A stretch of DNA of 38,682 nucleotides from NCBI GenBank assembly GCA_013331635.1, contig DUFZ01000049.1, forward strand, positions 1 through 38,682. The letters are read 5' to 3'. The DNA is from Candidatus Woesearchaeota archaeon (GTDB lineage Archaea > Nanobdellota > Nanobdellia > Woesearchaeales > GW2011-AR9). Made by a program: the position numbers and the translations under genes. The notes under the pieces were generated by a model. The model ran no database searches. It was not told the origin of the DNA and saw only the letters and a program-made list of their open reading frames with translations. Shown here piece by piece: positions 3,494 to 15,397 of the stretch; position 1 is the stretch's first letter, and the number at the start of each line of letters is the position of its first letter.

Positions 3494-4375
3494 TTAATCT
3501 TTCCTCATCATGTCTGCCAAGAATCCAAACAGCACGGTTTGCAGGCCAAAAACTAATAGAATCATCATTAAAAAAAGTAACCCTAAATGCCCTTTTATTC
3601 CCGATGTAAAATGAAGGAAGACAAAGTAAAAGCCAATTATTCCTCCAAAAGAAAGTCCTAATAATCCAATCCTTCCAAAGAACATTAATGGCTCGTAATC
3701 TCGATAAATCCGGAAAATGTTAATCCAGGCCTTGAGGGCGTATTGAAGTGGATTCTTAAAGAGGCGGCTAGACCTAGTTCGCCGTGTTTGGATTGGTACT
3801 TCCGCAATCCTAAATCCTTGCTTAGTCGCCTTAATAATCTGTTCCTGGGTGTAGGTAAAGGTATTGATGTAATTAATCTCACTGGCTACTTCTGCGGTAA
3901 AAGCCCTGAAACCGGTAGTAGAATCAGTGATTCTCACGTTGGTTAAAGAAGTAAGTACGATGGAAAAAGCAATATTTCCTATCTTTTTGAGCAGCGGCAT
4001 TTGTTCAATTTTTCCCCGAAAACGGCTGCCTAATACTAAGTCATATCCGCTTTCTACTTTTTGGATGAGTTCTGGGATGTGCTGGGGATGATATTGCCCA
4101 TCGGCATCGGTGTGTACAATAATATCCGCACCAAGTTTAAGGCATTCTTTCATCTCTTCCCGAAACGTTTCTGCTAGTCCCCTATTTCGGGGATGAGATA
4201 CGACTATCGCTCCCTGCTTCTCAGCTATCTCTGCTGTTCTATCCCTTGAACCATCATCCAGCACCAGAATTTTGTATTTATACTTGGTGTTCTGCATCAC
4301 TTGTTTTATTTCTTCTAGTACCAAAGGCAGGGTTTTTTCTTCGTTGTACGCGGGTATGGTAATGATGACTTTCAT
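3494..4375 (-). CDS. GT2 glycosyltransferase with C-terminal membrane helices (DPM-like)
   Basis: The N-terminal 220 or so residues form a GT-A fold: IPAYNEE at the start, VLDDGSRDRT for nucleotide binding, and TDADGQYHP with the DxD-type metal site. The sequence then shows DSTTGFRAF and a basic segment TRRTRSSRL typical of polyprenyl-phosphate mannose/glucose synthases. Two hydrophobic helices occupy about residues 230-285. The expected job is transfer of a sugar from a nucleotide donor to a polyprenyl (dolichyl) phosphate at the cytoplasmic face. The start overlaps the end of the Gfo/Idh gene by an ATGA-type junction, indicating coupled translation. Confidence 0.88.
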   Translation of the reverse strand: MKVIITIPAYNEEKTLPLVLEEIKQVMQNTKYKYKILVLDDGSRDRTAEIAEKQGAIVVSHPRNRGLAETFREEMKECLKLGADIIVHTDADGQYHPQHIPELIQKVESGYDLVLGSRFRGKIEQMPLLKKIGNIAFSIVLTSLTNVRITDSTTGFRAFTAEVASEINYINTFTYTQEQIIKATKQGFRIAEVPIQTRRTRSSRLFKNPLQYALKAWINIFRIYRDYEPLMFFGRIGLLGLSFGGIIGFYFVFLHFTSGIKGHLGLLFLMMILLVFGLQTVLFGFLADMMRKD

Positions 4376-5370
4376 GGTAGAATAATTACCTGTTTGGTTT
4401 GCGCTGAGGTAAGTAGCTGATTGGCGGTGGAGAGTACCTTGAGCCCGTGTTCACCCGGAACTGATGCTGGCAGGCCTAAACGAATGCACTCCAGGAAGGA
4501 CTCCAGTTCTACCTGTAGGGGCTCTTTCTTAGGAATAATTATTTTTTTCATGTCCCCTTCCGTGACGCTTTCCCAGTTATCGCTGCTGAAAGATTTGTTC
4601 TCATAAAAAAATAATTCCTGGTTCAGATAGTTCACTTCAAACATGCCTTTTTTTCCAAAGACTTTTAACTGCCTGATTTTGGTAGGAGAGAGATAATTTA
4701 TGTTTAATATTGCTGAGACCCCATTTTTGTACTGGATAATGGCAGTTACGGAATCCTCGCAGTGGGGATGAAGGCGCTGTTGAGTTTCAGCATAAATATG
4801 GCTTGGTTCAGATTCAATAAGATAATTGATAATATCTAAATCGTGCACAGAAAGGTCGGTGATAACACCAACATCAGTAATACGGCTGGGAAAAGGGCCG
4901 ATGCGCTGCACGTCAATTTTATAGATGTCCCCTAAATCATTGATTCTTTTTTTTAATTCGATGACCGCAGCATTGAACCGTTCAATGTGCCCGATCATGA
5001 GCAAGCACTTATGATTGACGGCGCAGGCGATAATCTCCTTCGCTTCTGGTTCGGTGGAAGCAATAGGCTTTTCCAGCAAGATGTGCTTGCCCTTAGTTAA
5101 GGCGTAGAGAGCGACTTCTTTATGCAGGCAGGTAGGAACAGCAATGGAAACGGCATCAATATCTTCTTGGTCAAGCATCTCTTTATAATCAGCATATGGT
5201 TTAGCATGGTATTTTTTGGCGATGTTTTCAGCCTGTTCCAGGTAACTGTCAGCTACTGCCACAAGTTCAGCATTCTCACTGTTAAAGAATACTCGGGCGT
5301 GGTTCTGGCCCATTGAGCCAACTCCGATAACGGCGACACGAATTCGTTTCTTTATCTCCATTTTTATCAT
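4372..5370 (-). CDS. Gfo/Idh/MocA oxidoreductase, likely nucleotide-sugar 3-dehydrogenase
   Basis: A 332-residue protein with the Rossmann motif VIGVGSMGQNHAR, the family lysine in LEKPIA (near residue 97), GHIERFNAAV in the substrate domain and HDLDI further on. Archaeal and bacterial relatives of this type (WlbA/WbpB, UDP-GlcNAc(A) 3-dehydrogenase) oxidise C3 of UDP-GlcNAc or its uronic acid before transamination. The DegT aminotransferase gene directly precedes it, the two coupled as TAA then ATG with no spacer, which supports a dehydrogenase-aminotransferase pair acting in turn. Two starts (ATG at 5370 or four codons on) are possible. Which sugar carbon is oxidised is inferred from family resemblance only. 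Confidence 0.88.
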   Translation of the reverse strand: MIKMEIKKRIRVAVIGVGSMGQNHARVFFNSENAELVAVADSYLEQAENIAKKYHAKPYADYKEMLDQEDIDAVSIAVPTCLHKEVALYALTKGKHILLEKPIASTEPEAKEIIACAVNHKCLLMIGHIERFNAAVIELKKRINDLGDIYKIDVQRIGPFPSRITDVGVITDLSVHDLDIINYLIESEPSHIYAETQQRLHPHCEDSVTAIIQYKNGVSAILNINYLSPTKIRQLKVFGKKGMFEVNYLNQELFFYENKSFSSDNWESVTEGDMKKIIIPKKEPLQVELESFLECIRLGLPASVPGEHGLKVLSTANQLLTSAQTKQVIILP

Positions 5371-6456
5371 TTACATTTCTTGGTATTTTTCTATTGTGGT
5401 TATAATATAATCCATATCTTTTTCGGTGATAAATGGATGAACCGGCAGGGACAGCACTTCCAAGGCAATTTTTTCAGTGTGGGGGAAAGTCATTTGGTTA
5501 TATTCTGAATACGCTTTCTGTTTGTGTATCGGGAGAGGGTAAAAAATGGCAGTTCCTATTCCTTTGTCTGTGAGATACTGAACAAGTTCATCCCTAGTTT
5601 TACCAAATTCTGTGGTTACCCGGATGGTGTATTGATGAAATACGTGTTTAGGATTTATTGGTGGTACGACCAGGCCCTGGATCAGACGTAGCCTTTTGGT
5701 AAGGTACAGCGCGTTTTTGCGACGTTGTTCATTAAAAAAGGGCAGTTTTTTCAGCTGTTCGATGCCAATGGCAGCAGCAATATCAGTCATGCGGTAGTTG
5801 TAGCCTATAAAATCATGATAGTACTTTTTTTCTGAGCCGTGAGTAATGAGTTTACGGGCCAGGGCGGCGATATGGTCATCATTCGTAGTGATCATGCCCC
5901 CTTCTCCAGTGGTCATGTTTTTGGTCGGGTAAAAAGAAAAACAGCCGGTTCCAAATGAACCCACTTTTTTGCCGTCACATTCAGCACCATGGGCCTGGCA
6001 GGCATCTTCGATGATGGAGAGATTATGCTTCCTGGCGATGGCACTAATCACATCCATCTCTGCGGATTGTCCGTAGAGGTGGACAGGCAGAATGGCTTTT
6101 GTTTTGGGGGTAATGGCTGGTTCAATTTGGTGGTAGTCAATATTGAAGGTGTTGTGATTAACGTCTACAAAAATAGGAGTTGCGCCAACCATCTTAATGG
6201 CATTAGCAGTAGCGATGAAAGAGAAAGGGCTGGTAATGACTTCATCACTTGGGCCGATTCCTAAAGCAAGAAGAGCAATATGCAGGGCGGTAGTCCCGTT
6301 GGAAGTGGCAATGGCGTGTTTGACACCAATGAAATAGGCAAAGGCTTTTTCAAAAGCAGCTACTCTTGTTCCTTGGGCTAACATACCGGATTCAAGAACT
6401 TCTAAAACTGCCCTCTTCTCCTCCTCACCAAGCTGAGGCTTTGCAATAGGAATCAT
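5371..6456 (-). CDS. DegT/DnrJ/EryC1 PLP-dependent sugar aminotransferase
   Basis: A 361-residue fold-type I aminotransferase. The N-terminus begins with the family's IPIAKPQLGEEE; SNGTTALH binds the PLP phosphate; DACQAHGA holds the PLP ring aspartate; and FYPTKNMTTGEGG contains the Schiff-base lysine (Lys179). Family members use glutamate to aminate a keto-sugar nucleotide (WbpE/WlbC-type at C3, ArnB/PglE-type at C4). The next gene encodes a Gfo/Idh dehydrogenase, which favours C3 amination. A strong TATA-like box lies 27 nt upstream, so this gene starts its own leaderless transcript even though the larger operon ends just before it. Confidence 0.92.
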   Translation of the reverse strand: MIPIAKPQLGEEEKRAVLEVLESGMLAQGTRVAAFEKAFAYFIGVKHAIATSNGTTALHIALLALGIGPSDEVITSPFSFIATANAIKMVGATPIFVDVNHNTFNIDYHQIEPAITPKTKAILPVHLYGQSAEMDVISAIARKHNLSIIEDACQAHGAECDGKKVGSFGTGCFSFYPTKNMTTGEGGMITTNDDHIAALARKLITHGSEKKYYHDFIGYNYRMTDIAAAIGIEQLKKLPFFNEQRRKNALYLTKRLRLIQGLVVPPINPKHVFHQYTIRVTTEFGKTRDELVQYLTDKGIGTAIFYPLPIHKQKAYSEYNQMTFPHTEKIALEVLSLPVHPFITEKDMDYIITTIEKYQEM

Positions 6457-6490: not shown

Positions 6491-6608
6491 CGGTAACTAA
6501 CCGACATTCAGGGCATTTTTCTCCTGCTTTCTTTCCTTCCTCCAGCTTCTTTCCACAGGCACAGACTACCTCACTGCTTGCGGTGATTGGGATTTTTATT
6601 TGTTCTTT
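6480..6608 (-). other. possible small zinc-ribbon frame without a usual start codon
   Basis: Between the methyltransferase and aminotransferase genes, an open minus-strand frame of about 42 codons reads ...VVCACGKKLEEGKKAG followed by EKCPECRLV, that is, two Cys-x-Cys/Cys-x-x-Cys knuckles 15-20 residues apart, a credible zinc ribbon. The frame begins after a TGA at 6609-6611, overlaps the last codons of the methyltransferase gene and contains no ATG, GTG or TTG before the first cysteines. It may use a rare start such as ATA/ATC, be the relic of a larger gene, or be joined by a frameshift to the methyltransferase end. Expression is unproven. Confidence 0.35.
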
Positions 6609-7327
6609 TCACAAACAAAGAAAATCCCCCCTGCAAGTTTGTTTATGATTGGAAAACTTTCCAATATTCCTTCCAGGGGCTTAGCTATAGTTATCATCTT
6701 CTGTGAAAAAGATGTAGGTATAAAAGTATGATACTCCAGGTGTGTAATCGAGTATCCAAATTCATGGAAAATTTTCTTCCAGGTGCGAAACATGTAACTT
6801 TGTTCATTACGGTGTATGGTAGGATAATAAATTCTTTCCTTATATCTCCTCAAAGGATTGAGAGCATTGGCCTCATCAACAAGAATAAGTCCTTTTCCCA
6901 CACGATCAATTTCTTGTATAGCATTATAAACAAGATTAGATGATAACCTATTGGTACTCTTAATTAAGTGGTGAAGAACACCTTGACAGATAATAACATC
7001 AAATTCTCTATCTTTAAAAGGAAGAGCGGTGACATCAGACTGAACAAAAGTGATATGTGGATATTTCTCTGTGGCTTTTTTAATCGCCTCTGCAGAATAA
7101 TCAACACCCACTAACTGGGTACAGAAAGGATAGTAAAAGTAAGTTGAAAAGCCAGAACCACATCCAATATCTAGTACTTTTTTATTTTTTGGAAGATGCT
7201 GAATGATGGGTGTAAAAGCTTTAAAGAGATGGTGGTTTCCACCAGGACTTAAATATTCCGGATAATCACCATCCTGTTGGACTTTTTCATCCCAATAATT
7301 TCTATATTCTTCTGTAGATTTTTCCAT
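6596..7327 (-). CDS. class I SAM-dependent methyltransferase
   Basis: A 243-residue protein with motif I VLDIGCGSGFST (about residue 50), motif II VGVDYSAEAI, motif III-like VQSDVTALPF and motif IV FDVIICQGVLHHL, the arrangement of UbiE/Methyltransf_11 enzymes. The C-terminal third probably forms the substrate lid. The start lies four bases after the stop of the E2-like gene, so it is the last gene of the long operon; the spacing suggests shared regulation. The substrate is unknown; a sugar, lipid or pathway intermediate are all possible. Confidence 0.85.
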   Translation of the reverse strand: MEKSTEEYRNYWDEKVQQDGDYPEYLSPGGNHHLFKAFTPIIQHLPKNKKVLDIGCGSGFSTYFYYPFCTQLVGVDYSAEAIKKATEKYPHITFVQSDVTALPFKDREFDVIICQGVLHHLIKSTNRLSSNLVYNAIQEIDRVGKGLILVDEANALNPLRRYKERIYYPTIHRNEQSYMFRTWKKIFHEFGYSITHLEYHTFIPTSFSQKMITIAKPLEGILESFPIINKLAGGIFFVCEKNK

Positions 7328-7330
7328 GTA

Positions 7331-8479
7331 TTACCTGTTTTTCTTAAACTCACTCTTTATAATTGTATTTGAAGGAATACTAAAAATAATTGTAGAGCCG
7401 CTGGCAATTGCAGTATCACTTCCAATGATAACATGGGGCTCAATATTTACTCCTGCTCCTAACGAACAGAGATCTCCAATTTTTACATCTCCACTAGTCA
7501 TTACTCCTGGACCGAAAAGAATGTGACTACCAATATGATTATGGTGTTCAATATCACAATGGGCGCTGATTAGGTTATTATCTCCCACTTCAGTTCCGTA
7601 ACCTAGGTGTACGAAAGCGCCAATTATATTACCCTCGCCAATTTTTGAGGTTTGGTTGAGATACGCCGTGGGATGGATCGCGTTCAGAAATAAATAGCCT
7701 TCAGTTTTTAGCAGATTGTAGATTTTTTTTCTTATTTTCATGTTGGAAGTTATGGAAAGACAAAGGTGAGTACAATTTTTTTCTTTAAAAATTTTTTCTA
7801 AAATTTTTATTCCTCCAAATATCGGTTTGTTCCAAATATATTTTCCCCAAAGAAGCTGATTATCATCAAGAAAGCCAATAATCTCATTTGCTGTATCACT
7901 GCTCAAGATATCAGCAACAACTTCTCCACCATTGCCAGCACCAATAATCAAGATTCGTTTTGGTTGATATGAATTAGTCTGTGTGCTTAATTTAATATTC
8001 TTTTCTAAGAACTTTTTTATATCCTCCTCTATAATCCTACCCTCTGGACCAGAACCATTAATTCTTTTTAAATCAACATTTTTTTCCTTTGCCAATCTTT
8101 TAGCTGCAGGAGAGGACTTAATTCTTTCTATCTCTACAGAAGAGGTTGGTGTTTCAGCAGTCTTATTTTGGAGGAAATTAATTTCTAGGTTTTTTTTTGA
8201 TAGTGGTTGTATTTGTATCTTGCTCAAATCTGGAAGTGGTTCTTGAGCTTCACCTATTAAAGCCAGTGGAGTTAGAATCGGAACTGTTTTTCCCGACTGG
8301 ATCAAAATTTTTCTTAAAAAGCCAGAATACTCTGCTTCTATCTCAATAAGAGCTTTTGCGGTTTCAATTTCAAATAAAGGCTCTCCTTTTTTAATTTCTT
8401 CCCCTTCTAATTTTAGCCAAGCAGCTACTGAAGCTTGTTCCATGTTTGGTTCAATTTTTGGAAGGATAATAATATGCAT
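7331..8479 (-). CDS. lipoyl + E3-binding + PglD/NeuD-type acetyltransferase fusion (E2-like)
   Basis: This 382-residue protein combines parts not normally joined. Residues 1-76 are a lipoyl domain beginning HIIILPKIEPNMEQ with the lipoylation site IETAKA (Lys42; the usual DK is AK). A linker leads to a peripheral subunit-binding domain at about 119-158 (SSPAAKRLAKE...NGSGPEGRIIEEDI). From about 175 comes the PglD/NeuD N-terminal Rossmann-like domain (IIGAGNGGEV) and from about 268 a left-handed beta-helix of hexapeptide repeats. His312 in CDIEHHNHIG matches the catalytic His region of PglD-type sugar N-acetyltransferases. The ordinary E2 catalytic domain (about 230 residues with an HxxxDG motif) is absent. 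Flanked by E1-beta upstream and four bases from the methyltransferase downstream. Predicted: E2 core of a 2-oxoacid dehydrogenase whose acyl acceptor is an amino-sugar nucleotide; alternatively it acylates CoA with this unrelated fold. Domain reading is firm, function inferred. Confidence 0.92.
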   Translation of the reverse strand: MHIIILPKIEPNMEQASVAAWLKLEGEEIKKGEPLFEIETAKALIEIEAEYSGFLRKILIQSGKTVPILTPLALIGEAQEPLPDLSKIQIQPLSKKNLEINFLQNKTAETPTSSVEIERIKSSPAAKRLAKEKNVDLKRINGSGPEGRIIEEDIKKFLEKNIKLSTQTNSYQPKRILIIGAGNGGEVVADILSSDTANEIIGFLDDNQLLWGKYIWNKPIFGGIKILEKIFKEKNCTHLCLSITSNMKIRKKIYNLLKTEGYLFLNAIHPTAYLNQTSKIGEGNIIGAFVHLGYGTEVGDNNLISAHCDIEHHNHIGSHILFGPGVMTSGDVKIGDLCSLGAGVNIEPHVIIGSDTAIASGSTIIFSIPSNTIIKSEFKKNR

Positions 8480-8483
8480 GGTG

Positions 8484-9452
8484 TTATCTATTTTTAATTT
8501 TTGATAATGCTTCTACAATATCTTGTTTTGATGGAAGCGTAGCTTTCTCTAAAGTTGGGCTGCAAGGGATGGGGATATCTTTCGCTGCTACACGTTGAAT
8601 AGGGAAATCTAGATAATCAAAACAATTTTCCATAACTTTACTTGCTATCTCAGCCCCTATACCCCCCGTCAAACATCCCTCTTCAATGATAATTACTTTC
8701 CCAGTTTTCTTCACAGAAGTAGAAATAGTTTCCATGTCCAAAGGAGCTAGGCTTCTTAAATCAACTATTTCCACACTTAAATTGCTTTCTTTTGCTGCGG
8801 CTATACTCTCTTGCAGATAGCGAGAATAAGTTATGATAGTAACATCATCTCCCAATTGAATTACTTTTGCTTTTCCAATAGGCAAAAGGTACTCTTCCTC
8901 TGGGACTATCCCTCTTGTTGCATACAATAATTTATTCTCAATAAATATCACAATATTGTTATCGCGAATTGAAGCTTTAAGTAATCCTTTTGCATCATAA
9001 GGAGTTGAGGGGTAGACTATTTTTAACCCAGGAATGCTTATGAGCAATGGTTCTAGACTTTGTGAGTGAGTTGCACCATATCCTCTTCCTCCACCAGCAG
9101 CAGTTCTGATAACTAAGGGAACTTTCAATTGACCATTAGAAACATGATGATATTTTACCGCATGGTTTAATAATTGATCCATACATAAAGTAAGAAAATC
9201 CATAAACATTATTTCAACAATTGGTCTCATTCCACCGATAGCACAACCAGCTGATACCCCTACCAAGGCTGCTTCAGACATAGGTGTATTTCTAATTCTA
9301 TCTAATCCAAATTTTTGAACAAAACCTTTTGACACTCCAAAAGCTCCCCCATAAGTTCCAATATCCTCACCAAGCATAAATACTTTAGAATCTCTTTCTA
9401 GTTCTTCAGTAAGGGCTTCTCGTATTGCTTCTATGTAGGTTATTTCTCTCAT
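8484..9452 (-). CDS. 2-oxoacid dehydrogenase E1 component, beta subunit
   Basis: A 322-residue transketolase pyrimidine-domain protein typical of heterotetrameric E1. It opens with ITYIEAIREAL, has GEDIGTYGG with the thiamine-activating glutamate region, PMSEAALVG, and GATHSQSLEPL. The C-terminal transketolase domain includes DLRSLAPLD and EEGCLTGG. Together with the alpha subunit it decarboxylates a 2-oxoacid on thiamine diphosphate and reductively acylates the lipoyl domain. The start overlaps the E1-alpha stop by four bases (ATGA type). The sequence is of the pyruvate/branched-chain/acetoin type; which oxoacid is used cannot be told by eye. Confidence 0.93.
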   Translation of the reverse strand: MREITYIEAIREALTEELERDSKVFMLGEDIGTYGGAFGVSKGFVQKFGLDRIRNTPMSEAALVGVSAGCAIGGMRPIVEIMFMDFLTLCMDQLLNHAVKYHHVSNGQLKVPLVIRTAAGGGRGYGATHSQSLEPLLISIPGLKIVYPSTPYDAKGLLKASIRDNNIVIFIENKLLYATRGIVPEEEYLLPIGKAKVIQLGDDVTIITYSRYLQESIAAAKESNLSVEIVDLRSLAPLDMETISTSVKKTGKVIIIEEGCLTGGIGAEIASKVMENCFDYLDFPIQRVAAKDIPIPCSPTLEKATLPSKQDIVEALSKIKNR

Positions 9453-10423
9453 GGTAGTCCACCTTCAGAACACCAGCAATGATCTAAAAGAGACGCTTCA
9501 GGAGGAAAAGGCGAATTTTGTGCAAAAATTGCCGCAGCATCTAATTCCTGTTCCACTTCTTGGTGTATACGCTTAAAAGTTTCATTACTTTCACCATATC
9601 TTTCTTTGATAATTTTTTCGTATTTTTCAATTGGATCTTTTTTAAGCCACTGTGCTTCCTCTTCTCTAGTTCGGTAAAGAAATAAATCATTCTTTGAGTG
9701 TCCGCTAAAGCGATACGTTTTGCATTCTATGAAAACAGGCCCTAAACCTGTACGTGCATTTTGTACTGCAGAGCTCACTGTTTCTTTTACCATCTCTATA
9801 TCATTCCCATCAATAGTTATTGATTTCATTCCGTATGACTCTACTCTTTTTGAGATATCTTGAAGGACCATGCTTTCTTTGGTGTGAGTTGACATTGCAT
9901 AAAGATTGTTCTCACAAAGAAAAATTATAGGAAGTTTCCACACCGCCGCAAGATTCAGGGTTTCATGATAATGCCCCTCATTGATAGCTCCATCTCCTGA
10001 AAATGAAAGTACTACTCTGGGCTCTTTTTTTAGTGCAAAAGCCAGGGCTATCCCCGTCCCAGTGACCGCAGTCCCTCCGGTAATTCCATTAGCAATGAAG
10101 TGATGTTTCCAAGACATGACATGTTGCGTTCCGCCTCTTCCCGAACAGAAACCGTCGACCCTGCCCATCAGTTCAGCCATTAAGTTATTTAAAGGAAGTC
10201 CTCTAGCTAAAGCGTGACCATGACCCCGATGGGTGCTCATCACTACATCATCTTCTTGAATGGCTGCACAGGCACCAACTGCAGAAGCTTCTTGTCCGAT
10301 AGAGAAATGACAAGTTCCATGCACTTGTCCGTGAGTAAATAAAAAATCCATTTTCTTTTCAAAAAAACGAATACGCAACATTCGTCGGTACAATTCCAAA
10401 GCTTCTTCAAGTGGGAGTGCCAT
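9449..10423 (-). CDS. 2-oxoacid dehydrogenase E1 component, alpha subunit
   Basis: A 324-residue protein with the thiamine diphosphate motif GDGAINEG (143-150) ending in ENN (171-173), THRGHGHALARG and GRGGTQH, the latter close to acetoin and pyruvate dehydrogenase E1-alpha proteins. Its length is that of the short alpha subunits of acetoin/pyruvate type rather than of the longer branched-chain type. It pairs with the overlapping E1-beta gene and probably docks on the subunit-binding domain of the E2-like protein. Such complexes are rare in anaerobic-type archaea, which mostly use ferredoxin oxidoreductases, so gene transfer from bacteria is plausible. Confidence 0.93.
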   Translation of the reverse strand: MALPLEEALELYRRMLRIRFFEKKMDFLFTHGQVHGTCHFSIGQEASAVGACAAIQEDDVVMSTHRGHGHALARGLPLNNLMAELMGRVDGFCSGRGGTQHVMSWKHHFIANGITGGTAVTGTGIALAFALKKEPRVVLSFSGDGAINEGHYHETLNLAAVWKLPIIFLCENNLYAMSTHTKESMVLQDISKRVESYGMKSITIDGNDIEMVKETVSSAVQNARTGLGPVFIECKTYRFSGHSKNDLFLYRTREEEAQWLKKDPIEKYEKIIKERYGESNETFKRIHQEVEQELDAAAIFAQNSPFPPEASLLDHCWCSEGGLP

Positions 10424-10446: not shown

Positions 10447-11214
10447 TTATGAAAATGAATTGAAGAAGTGGGGAATTTTTGCTTGACATTGTTCCTTCAT
10501 TTTGTCGAAGCTTACTTTTCCTTGACCGAGAACTTCTTCCACGCTCGTCATGACATCATACCTAAATCCGCAGGCATTTATAGGTGTAAAGTAATTAAGG
10601 TCAGTTGAAACATTAAACGCAAAGCCGTGCATGGTCACAATATATTTATTCCCTTGGGCATCAGAGCCGGCACTTTTTGTTTCAATACCTTGAGCAGCTA
10701 TTTTTTTATGTTCTCCTTCTAAACGGTACCATGCTCCTCGGATATTTTTTCCGTAAATATCAACTTCATTTTGTCGCGAATACGCAGCAATGCCCTGCTC
10801 ATTGGCCAAAGATAAGGTAAGTTCTTCTATTGCATCTACAAAACGACCGATAGCTGGAAGGGGGATTTTAAAGATAAAATAACACACTAATTGACCAGGC
10901 CCATGGAAGGTAATTTTTCCACCCCTATTCACATTAAAAATTGGTGCAAGCAGAGGATATTTTATTAATTTGCTTTTATCTACTAAATCTTTACCCAAAG
11001 TATATACTGGAAAGTGTTCTACCATTAGTACCATATTTGGAATTTGTTCATTAATTCTTTGCAATCGCAGCGTTTCTTGTAGCGTTAGTGATTCGCTATA
11101 TTCCATTTTTCCAAGATCTTTGATTTCTAAATCGGTACTCCTTTCTTTTTTTGGAAGTGTGGTTAGTGTATCCATTCTTTTCAATTTGCTTTCAAGGTTG
11201 TTTTGATCTAGCAT
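10447..11214 (-). CDS. lipB: octanoyltransferase LipB
   Basis: A 255-residue LipB/LplA-fold protein. It shows NRGGKITFHGPGQLVCY, the family core, then KKIAAQGI (lysines 170-171) and FTPINACGF with the catalytic cysteine (Cys215). LipB moves an octanoyl group from acyl carrier protein to the lipoyl-domain lysine, which LipA then converts to lipoyl. About 25 N-terminal residues look longer than the common core, so the start could be internal. The gene sits between Lpd and E1-alpha, giving the cluster its own lipoylation route. No acyl carrier protein gene is visible in the window, so the source of octanoate is an open question. Confidence 0.9.
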   Translation of the reverse strand: MLDQNNLESKLKRMDTLTTLPKKERSTDLEIKDLGKMEYSESLTLQETLRLQRINEQIPNMVLMVEHFPVYTLGKDLVDKSKLIKYPLLAPIFNVNRGGKITFHGPGQLVCYFIFKIPLPAIGRFVDAIEELTLSLANEQGIAAYSRQNEVDIYGKNIRGAWYRLEGEHKKIAAQGIETKSAGSDAQGNKYIVTMHGFAFNVSTDLNYFTPINACGFRYDVMTSVEEVLGQGKVSFDKMKEQCQAKIPHFFNSFS

Positions 11215-11245: not shown

Positions 11246-12637
11246 TTATTGACTATGAATCTTTGTTCGTTGTTCTAGAGCATTATGGACGGCTTCAAGA
11301 ATAGCTTCCGAAAGGGTGGGATGGGGAAAAATAAATTCTTTTACCTCTAAAGCGTCCTTTCCTAATAGAGGAATAGCGACCCCAATAAGTTCAGAAGCAT
11401 GGTTTCCAATGATAGATGCCCCAACTATTCTGTTTTCTTCCAAGTATACTTTTACAAAACCATTTATGTTCCCAGAAGCTATTGCTTTTCCATTGGCAAG
11501 GAAGAATGCTTTTCCTTGCAGTTTAGTTTGCACTCCAACTGAGGCAATTTCAGGATACGTAAAAATGCACTTTGGAACTTTGGAATAATCCATTACTCCT
11601 CTTTGTCCCATAATGTTCTTGGCAGCAATAAGGCCTTCCCAAGTTGCAATGTGAGCAAGCTGGTATTTCCCAGCTACATCACCAATAGCATATATTGAAG
11701 AAAGATTTGTTCTCATGTGCTTATCTGTAAAAATTCCTTGTCTACTAAAAGAAAGACCTATTTTCTGTAATTCTTCTGCCTCGAAATTGGCTTCTCTACC
11801 GATAGCGACTAACAAGATTTCAGTCTCAATATTTTCAGAGCAACCACTTTGAAGATTTTTTACATTTATTTTTACTTTACTTTCTTTTTCCTCAACTAAA
11901 AGTACTTCTCTGTTGCAAAGTAATTTAATATTTTTCTTGGTGAGACTTTTTATCAAGAATGATCTTACTTCCTGATCTTCCTGAGGAAGAAGCGAAGGCA
12001 AGTTTTCTATGATAGTGATATTTACCCCCAAAGTATTGAACAGTGAGGCATATTCCAAACCGATATATCCCGCGCCAACAATGACTATGCTTCTTGGAAA
12101 GACTTTTCTCTTAAAAATTTGCGAAATTTGGTCACTGGTAATTACTTGGGAAGAAAGGCATGTTCCAGGCAATAATCTTGGACGAGAACCAGTGGCAATA
12201 ATAATATTTTTTGTTTTAATAATTTCTGATTCGTTATTTTTAAAATGAACTATTACCTCAGAAATAGATTTTATTACTGCTTTCCCTAGGAGTAATGAAA
12301 CTCCTTGCTTTGAGAGCAAAAATGAAACTCCTTGTTGGACTTTTTGAGCTGCTTCTTCAGCTGATTTCCATAAAGAGAAAGTATCCACTAATGGTATGGT
12401 CAAAAAAATTCCTTTCTTTGCCTCCTCTTGCACTGTCTCAAAAAGTGCAGCCTTAGCAAGAAGAGTTTTTGTAGGTATACATCCTAATTTTGCACATACC
12501 CCTCCAAGTGTCTCTTTTTCAATTAAGCAAGCTTTTCCCCCAAGTTCAGCGATATGAATAGCGGCGTTATATCCTGCCGGACCACCACCAATAATAACAG
12601 CGTCAAATTCCGTTTCATTAATTTTTAGTTGATTCAT
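11246..12637 (-). CDS. lpdA: dihydrolipoamide dehydrogenase (E3)
   Basis: A 463-residue flavoprotein disulfide reductase. It has the FAD dinucleotide motif IIGGGPAGYNAA, the redox-active pair in GGVCAKLGCIPTK (Cys48 and Cys53), a second nucleotide motif IVGAGYIGLEYA for NAD, YAIGDVAG for FAD and the C-terminal catalytic His439-Glu444 in HPTLSE. It reoxidises dihydrolipoamide with NAD+ and thus completes the E1-E2-E3 set. All key residues are present and the length is normal. It lies three bases from lipA and about 30 bases before lipB in the same operon. Confidence 0.95.
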   Translation of the reverse strand: MNQLKINETEFDAVIIGGGPAGYNAAIHIAELGGKACLIEKETLGGVCAKLGCIPTKTLLAKAALFETVQEEAKKGIFLTIPLVDTFSLWKSAEEAAQKVQQGVSFLLSKQGVSLLLGKAVIKSISEVIVHFKNNESEIIKTKNIIIATGSRPRLLPGTCLSSQVITSDQISQIFKRKVFPRSIVIVGAGYIGLEYASLFNTLGVNITIIENLPSLLPQEDQEVRSFLIKSLTKKNIKLLCNREVLLVEEKESKVKINVKNLQSGCSENIETEILLVAIGREANFEAEELQKIGLSFSRQGIFTDKHMRTNLSSIYAIGDVAGKYQLAHIATWEGLIAAKNIMGQRGVMDYSKVPKCIFTYPEIASVGVQTKLQGKAFFLANGKAIASGNINGFVKVYLEENRIVGASIIGNHASELIGVAIPLLGKDALEVKEFIFPHPTLSEAILEAVHNALEQRTKIHSQ

Positions 12638-12640
12638 GGT

Positions 12641-13585
12641 TTACGTAATTGTAATTAAAGTGTTATCAAATATTGGTAAGGTAGAGTTATCTTGGATGCT
12701 TCGATTCATTTTTTGAGTAAGATGAAATTGTAGTTTGTCTGCCCGATACGAACTTCTTACCAGCGGACCGCTTTCTACATGTTTAAATCCCAATCCTAAT
12801 GCTATTAATCTCCACTTTTCAAATTGGTTGGGGGTGTAATATTTTTTAACTGGCCAATGCATTTCTGTTGGTTGTAGATATTGTCCTAGGGTAAGAAAAT
12901 CACATCCTCTATGTATGAGGTCTCTCAAAGTTTTTTCTATTTGTATCTCTTCTTCTCCTAAGCCAAGCATCAGACTAGATTTTGTTTTCTGGAGTAGATT
13001 TACCTGTTTAATCTTGCCAATGAGCTGCAGAGACAAAAGGTAATTACCTTGTGGTCGAACTTTAGAAAATATTTCTTCTACCGTTTCGATATTATGACTC
13101 AAGACTTCTGGTTGTATTTGTACAATTGATCTTAAGGATTCAAAATTGCCCTTGAAGTCGGGAATGAGTAGTTCTACTGCACATTTTGGATTTAATTCTC
13201 TTATTTTATCCACCGTTTCGACAAACATGCATGCCCCGCCGTCAGGAAGATCATCCCGATTTACTGATGTTATTACGACATAACTTAAACCCAACTGCTG
13301 AACAGCTTTAGCTACACGTTCTGGTTCGGTTTTATCAATGGTTACAGGCTTTCCTGGTGCGACATGACAATAGTGACAATTTCGAGTACATTTGTTACCT
13401 AAAATCATAAAAGTGGCTACGCCGTGGCTGAAACACTCTGCGCGATTGGGACAAAGTCCCTCTTGACAGATAGTGTTCAATTTTAATTCTGAAAGAATCG
13501 AAATGGTGTGATCAAATTGAGAGGGAGAACTATATCTTACTTTTAACCATTCAGCAAATTTTTTATTTGATAAATTGTCTACCAT
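12641..13585 (-). CDS. lipA: lipoyl synthase (radical SAM)
   Basis: A 314-residue lipoyl synthase. The auxiliary cluster motif Cx4Cx5C is C40, C45, C51 (CQEGLCPNRAEC) and the radical-SAM motif Cx3Cx2C is C66, C70, C73 (CTRNCHYC). The C-terminal RSSY motif that supplies the serine ligand of the auxiliary cluster is also there (VRSSYRAD). It inserts two sulfurs into octanoyl groups on lipoyl domains. The presence of all three motif groups makes it a convincing functional enzyme. Its linkage to lipB and to a single lipoyl-domain protein points to that protein as the main target. Confidence 0.95.
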   Translation of the reverse strand: MVDNLSNKKFAEWLKVRYSSPSQFDHTISILSELKLNTICQEGLCPNRAECFSHGVATFMILGNKCTRNCHYCHVAPGKPVTIDKTEPERVAKAVQQLGLSYVVITSVNRDDLPDGGACMFVETVDKIRELNPKCAVELLIPDFKGNFESLRSIVQIQPEVLSHNIETVEEIFSKVRPQGNYLLSLQLIGKIKQVNLLQKTKSSLMLGLGEEEIQIEKTLRDLIHRGCDFLTLGQYLQPTEMHWPVKKYYTPNQFEKWRLIALGLGFKHVESGPLVRSSYRADKLQFHLTQKMNRSIQDNSTLPIFDNTLITIT

Positions 13586-13589
13586 GGTC

Positions 13590-14669
13590 TTATTTTATAT
13601 TTTTTATTACTTGGATAATCTTTTGTGCCACTCCCGTTTCGTAAGGATATTTTATTCTCTGGATTCTTTGCAGTTCACTCTCCTGTTGGAGAAGACTTAA
13701 AGCAGTTGAAACTATTTTCTCTTCTTGGGTACCCACTAAGATATTTTTACCTGCTTTTACTATCCTTATCCATTCCGTTTCATTGCGTACAATCAAACAG
13801 GGCTTATTGCATACCAGTGCTTCTTCCTGAATGCCACCACTGTCACTCATACAGAAAAGGCAGCTTGATAACAGGCCCAAAAAGGTAAGGTAGGGCTGCG
13901 GCTCTAGTACTCTTATTTTTGGATTTAAGGTTATTTTATACTCTTGAAGCGCTTTTTTGGTTCGGGGATGAATGGGAAAAATGAGGGTGGTTTCTTCTGC
14001 CAGTTGATTCAAGGAGGCGGTAATTTGCTGTAGATTCTCTACTCTATCAGTATTTTCTGCACGATGAAGAGTAACTAAGACAAATTTATCTTTTTCTAAT
14101 CCAAATTGTCGGCTAATCTCAGTTTCATTTATGAACTGTTTATTTCTCACGATAGCATCAAACATAGTGCTTCCAAGCATAAAAACATTCTTGGTTATAC
14201 CCTCCTGCCGTAAATTTTCTACACTTACCTCATCGGGGGCAATTAAATAGGTTGCTAAGTGGTCAGCGATAATCCTATTGATTTCCTCAGGCATGTTCCG
14301 GTTAAATGACCGGCAGCCGGCTTCGATATGCATTAAAGGCAGATGTAATTTCGCAGCAGCTAGGGATGCAGCAGGTGCAGTATTGGTGTCTCCTTCAACA
14401 ATAACCAAGCTCGGTTTTTCTTTCTGTAGAATTTCTTCAACTTTTTCTAAAATCATGGCAGTTTGCTTTCCCTGAGCCTGAGAGCCAATGTGAAGATTAT
14501 ACGTTGGTGTGCGCAGCTGTAGCTCTTTAAAAAAAACTTGGTCCATAGCATAATCATAATGCTGGCCAGTATGAATGAGTATATGTTCAGAAATTCCTTC
14601 CAGAAGAGGTATCAGTGGTGAAAGTTTGGTAATTTCTGGCCGGGTGCCAAGTATGGTTGTAATTTTCAT
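13590..14669 (-). CDS. wecB: non-hydrolysing UDP-N-acetylglucosamine 2-epimerase
   Basis: A 359-residue GT-B fold epimerase. It starts ITTILGTRPEI, carries VEGDTNT (93-97), HIEAGCRSFNRNMPEE with catalytic-region acids, and SDSGGIQEEA near the C-terminus. WecB/MnaA enzymes convert UDP-GlcNAc to UDP-ManNAc; WbpI relatives epimerise UDP-2,3-diacetamido glucuronic acid to the manno form. Given the dehydrogenase and aminotransferase nearby, either substrate is possible. It overlaps the preceding GT2 gene by four bases and precedes lipA by four. Confidence 0.92.
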   Translation of the reverse strand: MKITTILGTRPEITKLSPLIPLLEGISEHILIHTGQHYDYAMDQVFFKELQLRTPTYNLHIGSQAQGKQTAMILEKVEEILQKEKPSLVIVEGDTNTAPAASLAAAKLHLPLMHIEAGCRSFNRNMPEEINRIIADHLATYLIAPDEVSVENLRQEGITKNVFMLGSTMFDAIVRNKQFINETEISRQFGLEKDKFVLVTLHRAENTDRVENLQQITASLNQLAEETTLIFPIHPRTKKALQEYKITLNPKIRVLEPQPYLTFLGLLSSCLFCMSDSGGIQEEALVCNKPCLIVRNETEWIRIVKAGKNILVGTQEEKIVSTALSLLQQESELQRIQRIKYPYETGVAQKIIQVIKNIK

Positions 14670-15397
14670 AGCTCTCTTCCAACTGTTTTATAGATGACAA
14701 TCCTCCCCATCAAATTTAAATGGCTTTTAATTGTGCTTAGCAATTTTATTTTGGAAACACCATATTGTCGCACTTGTAACGATGCTGGGAGTTCTTTTAC
14801 TGTATATCCTTTCAACACAGCTTTAATCAAAATTTCGGAGACATATAAGAAGTTATTAGCTTGGCTATGTACATTCTGTAGCACCTTTCGTTTATAGACC
14901 CGCACCATGGCACTATGAGTATAAATACCAGAACTTAATAGATATTTATAGATCAACGAAGCGCTTTTGCTGAGAAGGATACGGTAAGCAGGAACGTTGT
15001 TGACTTTCCCAAGTGGGTGATAAGGAGATACAGTGACGATATCGGTGTGCTCATCAAGCAGCTGGAGCATTTCTAGAATGAGAGAAGGAGGATAAGTACA
15101 ATCACTATCTAGAGCAGCAACGAGATCTCCGCTTGCATGCGTGAATCCTGTTTTTAAAGCAGCACCCAAATTTTTATTGACTTCATGCTTAATAATTTTC
15201 ACGCTAGACCAATTTCCAAAATATTGATGTAGCAATTCATTAGTACGGTCATTGCTACCATCATCCACAAAAATGACCTCTAATTTATAGGTTTTGCAAA
15301 GCTCTTTGGCAACCGGACGCAATTGCTGAACTAGCTGAGGAATCCCCTCTTCTTCGTTATAGCACGGGATGATAATAGAGAGGCTAGGCTTTGACAT
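14666..15397 (-). CDS. GT2 glycosyltransferase (polyprenyl-phosphate sugar synthase-like)
   Basis: A 243-residue soluble GT-A enzyme beginning SIIIPCYNEEEG, with FVDDGSNDRT and LDSDCTYPP as nucleotide and metal sites. There are no clear membrane helices, unlike the GT2 at 3494-4375. It is the first gene of the nine-gene minus-strand operon, with its promoter directly upstream, and overlaps the epimerase gene. Likely transfers a sugar to a lipid carrier or growing glycan; specificity unknown. Confidence 0.88.
   Translation of the reverse strand: MSKPSLSIIIPCYNEEEGIPQLVQQLRPVAKELCKTYKLEVIFVDDGSNDRTNELLHQYFGNWSSVKIIKHEVNKNLGAALKTGFTHASGDLVAALDSDCTYPPSLILEMLQLLDEHTDIVTVSPYHPLGKVNNVPAYRILLSKSASLIYKYLLSSGIYTHSAMVRVYKRKVLQNVHSQANNFLYVSEILIKAVLKGYTVKELPASLQVRQYGVSKIKLLSTIKSHLNLMGRIVIYKTVGREL

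Follow-up and report, generated by a model that had tools for sequence, protein, structure and literature searches.

An E2-like protein with a sugar N-acetyltransferase fold in place of the E2 core, encoded in an archaeal amino-sugar operon

Gene content of the operon

The window, that is, the whole stretch of 38,682 nucleotides that was analysed, is one complete contig of a Candidatus Woesearchaeota genome (1.32 Mb in 91 contigs, 95% complete, 0.1% contaminated), which carries a thermosome, a type II methionyl aminopeptidase and S19e. Its minus strand holds an amino-sugar operon that begins, in order of transcription, with genes for an LPG-synthase-like membrane protein, a family 2 glycosyltransferase (GT2; 14666–15397) and a WecB/WbpI-type UDP-sugar 2-epimerase (13590–14669; TIGR00236, 351 bits). 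These are followed by an uninterrupted run of six genes, encoding the lipoyl synthase LipA (12641–13585; TIGR00510, 337.7 bits, cut-off 310), the dihydrolipoyl dehydrogenase E3 (11246–12637; TIGR01350, 431 bits, cut-off 408.8), the octanoyltransferase LipB (10447–11214; TIGR00214, 94.3 bits, cut-off 83.55), the E1 alpha subunit (9449–10423), the E1 beta subunit (8484–9452; NF006667, 375 bits, cut-off 321) and, as the last gene, a fusion protein of 382 residues (7331–8479). E1 beta, E3, LipA and LipB each passed one or more NCBIfam cut-offs; the match of E1 alpha was strong (E1_dh, 2.5e-75) but remained below the cut-off of TIGR03182 (338 bits against 393.85), with its ThDP motif (GDG...NEG) intact.

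Downstream of the fusion gene, the operon continues with a methyltransferase (6596–7327), a DegT/WbpE-type aminotransferase (5371–6456), a Gfo/Idh/MocA dehydrogenase (4372–5370), a second GT2 (3494–4375), an FkbM methyltransferase, a nucleotidyltransferase and an SDR protein. The closest model to the Gfo/Idh protein was that of the archaeal UDP-GlcNAc 3-dehydrogenase, at a score below its cut-off (NF040723, 320 bits, cut-off 450). Within the lipoyl and E1/E3 gene set, neighbouring genes overlap or are separated by a few to about 30 bases; four bases lie between the E1 beta stop and the fusion start, and three between the fusion stop and the methyltransferase start. A first-pass annotation of this DNA had implied that E1 and E3 genes stand beside the fusion gene, and they do, with those of LipB and LipA in the same run.

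Domains, predicted fold and conserved residues of the fusion protein

The fusion gene is a single open frame on the minus strand with no internal stop, the plus strand across the same region being interrupted by stops throughout. All four of its Pfam matches exceeded the curated cut-offs. They correspond to a lipoyl domain at residues 6–75 (8255–8464; Biotin_lipoyl, 1.9e-12) with the lipoylation lysine K42 within ETAKA (8354–8356), an E3/E1-binding domain at residues 120–154 (8018–8122; E3_binding, 5.4e-15), a PglD_N Rossmann domain at residues 175–255 with an FLDD motif (7715–7957; 7.9e-10), probably involved in nucleotide-sugar binding, and a left-handed beta-helix acyltransferase domain at residues 278–374 (7358–7648; Hexapep from residue 278, 4.5e-14), in which His312 (7544–7546) is predicted to be catalytic. 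Residues 176–374 also matched the NCBIfam NeuD_NnaD model (TIGR03570; 2.2e-44) with 151.5 bits, short of its cut-off of 160.8. No match to the 2-oxoacid_dh CoA acyltransferase core of E2 proteins was detected by Pfam in the fusion protein. The protein is, then, an E2-like fusion with a sugar acetyltransferase fold, as the first-pass annotation had described it: the lipoyl domain with Lys42, the E1/E3-binding domain (there placed at about 119–158), the PglD/NeuD-type Rossmann and beta-helix domains with His312, and the missing E2 catalytic domain were all recovered in the profile searches.

Comparison with known structures divided the protein in the same manner. PDB matches to the N-terminal half were E2 chains of pyruvate dehydrogenase, the lipoyl domain sharing 40–42% identity with structures of the human L2 lipoyl domain, and several E2 families of NCBIfam matched this part too; those to the C-terminal half were perosamine N-acetyltransferase, VioB and PglB. 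In the AF2 model, the lipoyl (mean pLDDT about 92–96) and Rossmann parts were confident and the E3-binding and beta-helix parts moderately so, with lipoyl domains and NeuD-family enzymes as the top fold matches, but the Rossmann and beta-helix parts were poorly placed with respect to each other (TM 0.45, rmsd 12). Residues 80–112 (8144–8242), modelled with low confidence (pLDDT below 50), form a linker that is probably the tether of a swinging arm. The protein thus resembles the E2 of 2-oxoacid dehydrogenases in its lipoyl domain with a modifiable lysine, its flexible linker, its E3-binding domain and the adjacent genes for E1 alpha, E1 beta and E3. Its C-terminal domain is also of a kind that forms trimers, and the core of the fusion is predicted to be trimeric. 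It differs from E2 in ending in a NeuD/PglD-type sugar N-acetyltransferase instead of the 2-oxoacid_dh core, and in the place of its gene, a glycan operon that also supplies LipA and LipB of its own.

The NeuD domain was aligned with 27 NeuD-type proteins: PerB, nine proteins of the phylum and 17 encoded on plasmids of various organisms. His312 is kept in all 27 and aligns with the catalytic His141 of PerB. The fusion also retains a glycine taken as the equivalent of Gly160, the oxyanion-hole residue of Pcryo_0637, and, within FLDD, an Asp whose counterpart binds UDP in that protein, where the homologous Asp40/Asp41 contact the nucleotide (PMC8040287). Like NeuD, PglD, PerB and VioB (TIGR03570), it combines a PglD_N Rossmann domain and a left-handed beta-helix with a His at the catalytic position, but unlike them it carries N-terminal lipoyl and E3-binding domains, and some conserved positions are changed. 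The residue following the catalytic His, acidic in 27 of 27 homologues, is a His (H313) in the fusion, the GAG at 359–361 is ASG, and several other conserved positions also differ. The C-terminal GxPA motif of CoA-dependent NeuD proteins (Gly in 26 of 27 homologues, Pro in 27 of 27) is absent from the shortened tail (7331–7375) because the protein ends early, and none of the alternative frames restores it. The last turn of Pcryo_0637 holds an Xaa-Pro peptide that is cis in the presence of CoA and was reported as trans in its absence (PMC8040287), a switch which suggests that the segment missing from the fusion is a CoA-responsive element. We also considered the loss of a Lys/Arg in the VVxK/R-D segment, an argument that was dropped, as several ordinary NeuD proteins likewise have no Lys/Arg there. 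Judged from the alignment, the changes would suit an active site adapted to another donor; H313 and the other changed positions could also mean reduced activity or a scaffold role.

A second NeuD is encoded on contig 90 of the same genome (L111:8709-10148), where it follows a KDO-cytidylyltransferase-like domain in one fused protein whose gene clusters with a DegT gene and NeuB-like genes. This copy retains the C-terminal motif, as GVPA.

The N-acetyltransferase slot and the lipoyl system of the genome

Six relatives of the same family (G009, G025, G027, G036, G121 and G209) have the same operon without the module, in the order GT2-WecB-WbpD-DegT-Gfo/Idh, versus GT2-WecB-[module]-DegT-Gfo/Idh here; in some of them, one to three unrelated genes stand ahead of DegT or Gfo/Idh. 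The orthologues of G009 match those of the window with 630 bits for WecB and 540–580 bits for DegT and Gfo/Idh, and in G121 the upstream membrane protein and a divergent PMT_2 gene likewise match the window. The gene that occupies the slot in the relatives encodes a hexapeptide acetyltransferase (P0002) of about 183–187 residues, fused to WecB in G209, which, judged by slot and size, is the counterpart of WbpD. In the pathway of UDP-ManNAc3NAcA (WbpA-B-E-D-I), WbpD acts between WbpE, which is the aminotransferase, and WbpI, which is the epimerase, and converts UDP-GlcNAc3NA to UDP-GlcNAc3NAcA (PMC10622841). Homologues of P0002 (E <= 1e-10) were found in 16 of the 48 family members, with none in the genome of the window. 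The fusion thus shares with WbpD/WlbB the slot between the genes of the 2-epimerase (13590–14669) and those of the 3-aminotransferase and 3-dehydrogenase (5371–6456 and 4372–5370), these Wbp-type pathway genes all being found beside its N-acetyltransferase domain, and the acceptor amine is presumed to be the same. It differs in setting a NeuD-type domain into the frame of an E2, the WbpD-like protein of the relatives being a stand-alone hexapeptide protein without PglD_N.

This synteny, in which the E1-E3-fusion module stands exactly in place of a WbpD-like gene in a genome with no WbpD of its own, is the strongest evidence that we have. GC3 is 0.23–0.30 in the module, including either half of the fusion, against 0.35–0.47 in the operon genes that adjoin it. 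The E1 subunits are closer to those of a Clostridioides plasmid (53% and 45%) than to the E1 subunits of two further phylum members (41% and 34%). The position in the WbpD slot, the GC3 of the module and the closeness of E1 to the plasmid lead us to read the module as a probable horizontally acquired cassette that replaced the ancestral WbpD-like N-acetyltransferase. The methyltransferase gene adjoining the fusion (6596–7327) shares the low GC3 and seems to be part of the same cassette.

The plasmid with the best E1 beta match (Clostridioides difficile, 53%) was inspected as a possible sister operon and set aside, its E2 having an ordinary catalytic core. In that oxoacid dehydrogenase operon (L146:14991-17934), the lipoyl domain is carried by E3, and the E2, without a lipoyl domain, has two E3-binding-like repeats.

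Fusions of acetyltransferases with neighbouring sugar enzymes recur in these archaea, as in L174:8933-10588 (WecB::WbpD) and L164:1504-3369 (NeuD::DegT). A DegT protein of 562 residues (L116:5299-6987) has a weak NeuD match, and the relative G015 has a fusion of an SDR-like protein with a NeuD-like domain in which the catalytic His and the C-terminus are missing (L112:7495-8985), from which it appears that fused copies can lose activity.

The first-pass annotation had also called for a search of domain architectures. Carried out on the order, the phylum, and plasmid, phage and viral DNA, it yielded no second protein with lipoyl, E3-binding and PglD domains: none among 353 genomes of the order nor among 371 sampled from the phylum (two overlapping sets), and no full-length fusion in plasmids, phages or IMG/VR viral contigs. 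A weak single-sequence pattern scan of bacterial and archaeal chromosomes outside the phylum returned 70 loci, nearly all from Pelagibacterales/SAR11; they matched in the lipoyl and E3-binding regions only and were discarded as uninformative. Among open-licence papers, no work was found that combined lipoyl with NeuD, or that joined a lipoyl domain, a hexapeptide, an acetyltransferase and pyruvate dehydrogenase.

With regard to the lipoyl system, searches of the 95% complete genome for 2-oxoacid_dh, Biotin_lipoyl and GcvH, with controls that behaved as they should, revealed no standard E2, which the first-pass annotation had considered as a possible partner of the E1/E3 pair, and no GcvH, and the fusion was the sole Biotin_lipoyl match. 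Since there is no E2 catalytic domain, no other lipoyl or biotinyl domain and no GcvH, the E1, E3, LipA and LipB proteins have no visible client other than the fusion. Elsewhere in the phylum, ordinary E2 proteins encoded next to E1 beta are common. The genome also yielded no match to a POR domain nor, despite its bacterial-type LipB (10447–11214), to the acyl carrier protein domain (PF00550). On contig 61, a protein of 612 residues with CoA-ligase and citrate-synthase/citryl-CoA-lyase domains (L166:707-2545) resembles part of ATP-citrate lyase and is a possible source of acetyl-CoA for the cell. The idea of a cell without CoA or acetyl-CoA was rejected as unsupported, given this protein and the second NeuD with its intact motif.

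A putative CoA-free acyl transfer and its alternatives

One operon encodes all the parts needed for an acetyl-lipoyl protein together with the enzymes that a UDP-3-amino sugar would require, namely a 3-dehydrogenase, an aminotransferase and a 2-epimerase, and a single protein, the fusion, links the two sets. The reading that we favour, with a probability of roughly 0.6, is that an N-acyltransferase has taken over as the E2 core of a 2-oxoacid dehydrogenase complex, which passes the acyl group from lipoamide to the amine of a nucleotide sugar without CoA. More specifically, and with about the same probability, a private pyruvate-dehydrogenase-like complex would use its acetyl-lipoamide directly to acylate a UDP-sugar at the 3-amino group, the module taking the place of WbpD. 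The fusion would be the core of this dedicated 2-oxoacid (most likely pyruvate) dehydrogenase-like complex, in which E1 alpha and E1 beta, by decarboxylating the oxoacid, would charge K42 of the lipoyl arm with the acyl group, the arm itself being made by the LipA and LipB of the operon. The Gfo/Idh dehydrogenase and the DegT aminotransferase would supply the UDP-3-amino sugar. The arm would then swing into the beta-helix active site, where His312 would deprotonate the 3-amino group and the amine would receive the acetyl directly, and E3, held by its binding domain, would reoxidise the dihydrolipoyl arm. The product would be a UDP-GlcNAc3NAc(A)-type sugar, to be epimerised by WecB/WbpI for a surface glycan. 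The CoA-free transfer and the identities of acyl group and acceptor are what we infer; judging by the pyruvate dehydrogenase families that E1 matched, acetyl is the most likely acyl group, with propionyl, branched and succinyl groups as possible alternatives.

That acyl groups can be taken up from a protein-bound arm by beta-helix enzymes is illustrated by LpxA and LpxD, which are acyl-ACP-dependent. By analogy, the fusion may share with them a beta-helix acyltransferase fold, a protein-bound acyl thioester donor and a UDP-amino sugar acceptor, although in their case the acyl group comes from acyl-ACP, on a separate protein, whereas here it would come from a lipoyl domain that is part of the same chain and is charged by E1. 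Counted against direct transfer are that 4-amino sugars are the acceptors for which NeuD proteins are best known, the pathway here appearing to make a 3-amino sugar, that conserved positions such as the one after His312 are changed, that the ATP-citrate-lyase-like protein may provide the cell with acetyl-CoA, and that the fusion is known from one genome only. As to a conserved CoA pocket, which the first-pass annotation had weighed against its own proposal of direct lipoamide-to-amino-sugar transfer, the alignment shows the CoA-responsive GxPA to be lost while His312 and most UDP-binding features stayed; with no E2 found, no sign of a frameshift and the WbpD slot filled, that proposal gains support as an inference.

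Other explanations have to be weighed against the same evidence. The C-terminal part might be an ordinary acetyl-CoA-dependent N-acetyltransferase tethered to E1 and E3, the lipoyl part having a role in regulation, in localisation or in some reaction of another kind; both His312 and the fold are retained, and fusions of this kind are common in these archaea (the WecB::WbpD and NeuD::DegT proteins above). We consider this unlikely, as without any E2 catalytic domain E1, E3, LipA and LipB would be purposeless, and the CoA-responsive motif is lost in the fusion while kept in the other NeuD of the genome. That loss also speaks against the beta-helix domain being a replacement E2 core that transfers from lipoamide to CoA, the complex supplying acetyl-CoA either to the cell at large or for acetylation of the sugar nearby. 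Beta-helix acetyltransferases in general bind CoA, and such a source might be needed in a genome with no other E2 and no POR domain. However, the gene sits exactly in the slot of a sugar N-acetyltransferase, the Rossmann nucleotide-sugar domain is kept, and the ATP-citrate-lyase-like protein offers another possible source, which makes this reading rather unlikely as well.

It is distinctly improbable that the beta-helix part is a catalytically weak trimeric scaffold for the lipoyl and E3-binding domains: H313, the other changed positions and the fused NeuD-like domain without catalytic His in G015 would agree with this, but His312 and the FLDD region are retained, and the genome has no other WbpD-like enzyme for the step. 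Least probable of all, with only a very slim chance, is an assembly or binning artefact that joined two genes, as might be suspected from a single occurrence in an assembly of 91 contigs. The first-pass annotation had raised a joining error or frameshift; the frame is continuous without a stop and hides no C-terminal extension, the low module GC3 is common to both halves, the spacing is tight on both sides, neither a separate E2 nor a separate WbpD is present in the genome, and the surrounding operon order agrees with that of the relatives.

Lipoyl-based oxoacid dehydrogenases are the textbook machines for acyl-CoA production. If direct transfer is true, the swinging-arm complex would be a modular platform, open to exchange of its terminal acyltransferase for an enzyme that serves a different acceptor. 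Lipoamide would join CoA and ACP as a third type of donor for beta-helix acyltransferases, and the complex would offer a template for engineering CoA-free acylation. Central-carbon oxidation could then be wired directly to the building of glycans, with CoA bypassed.
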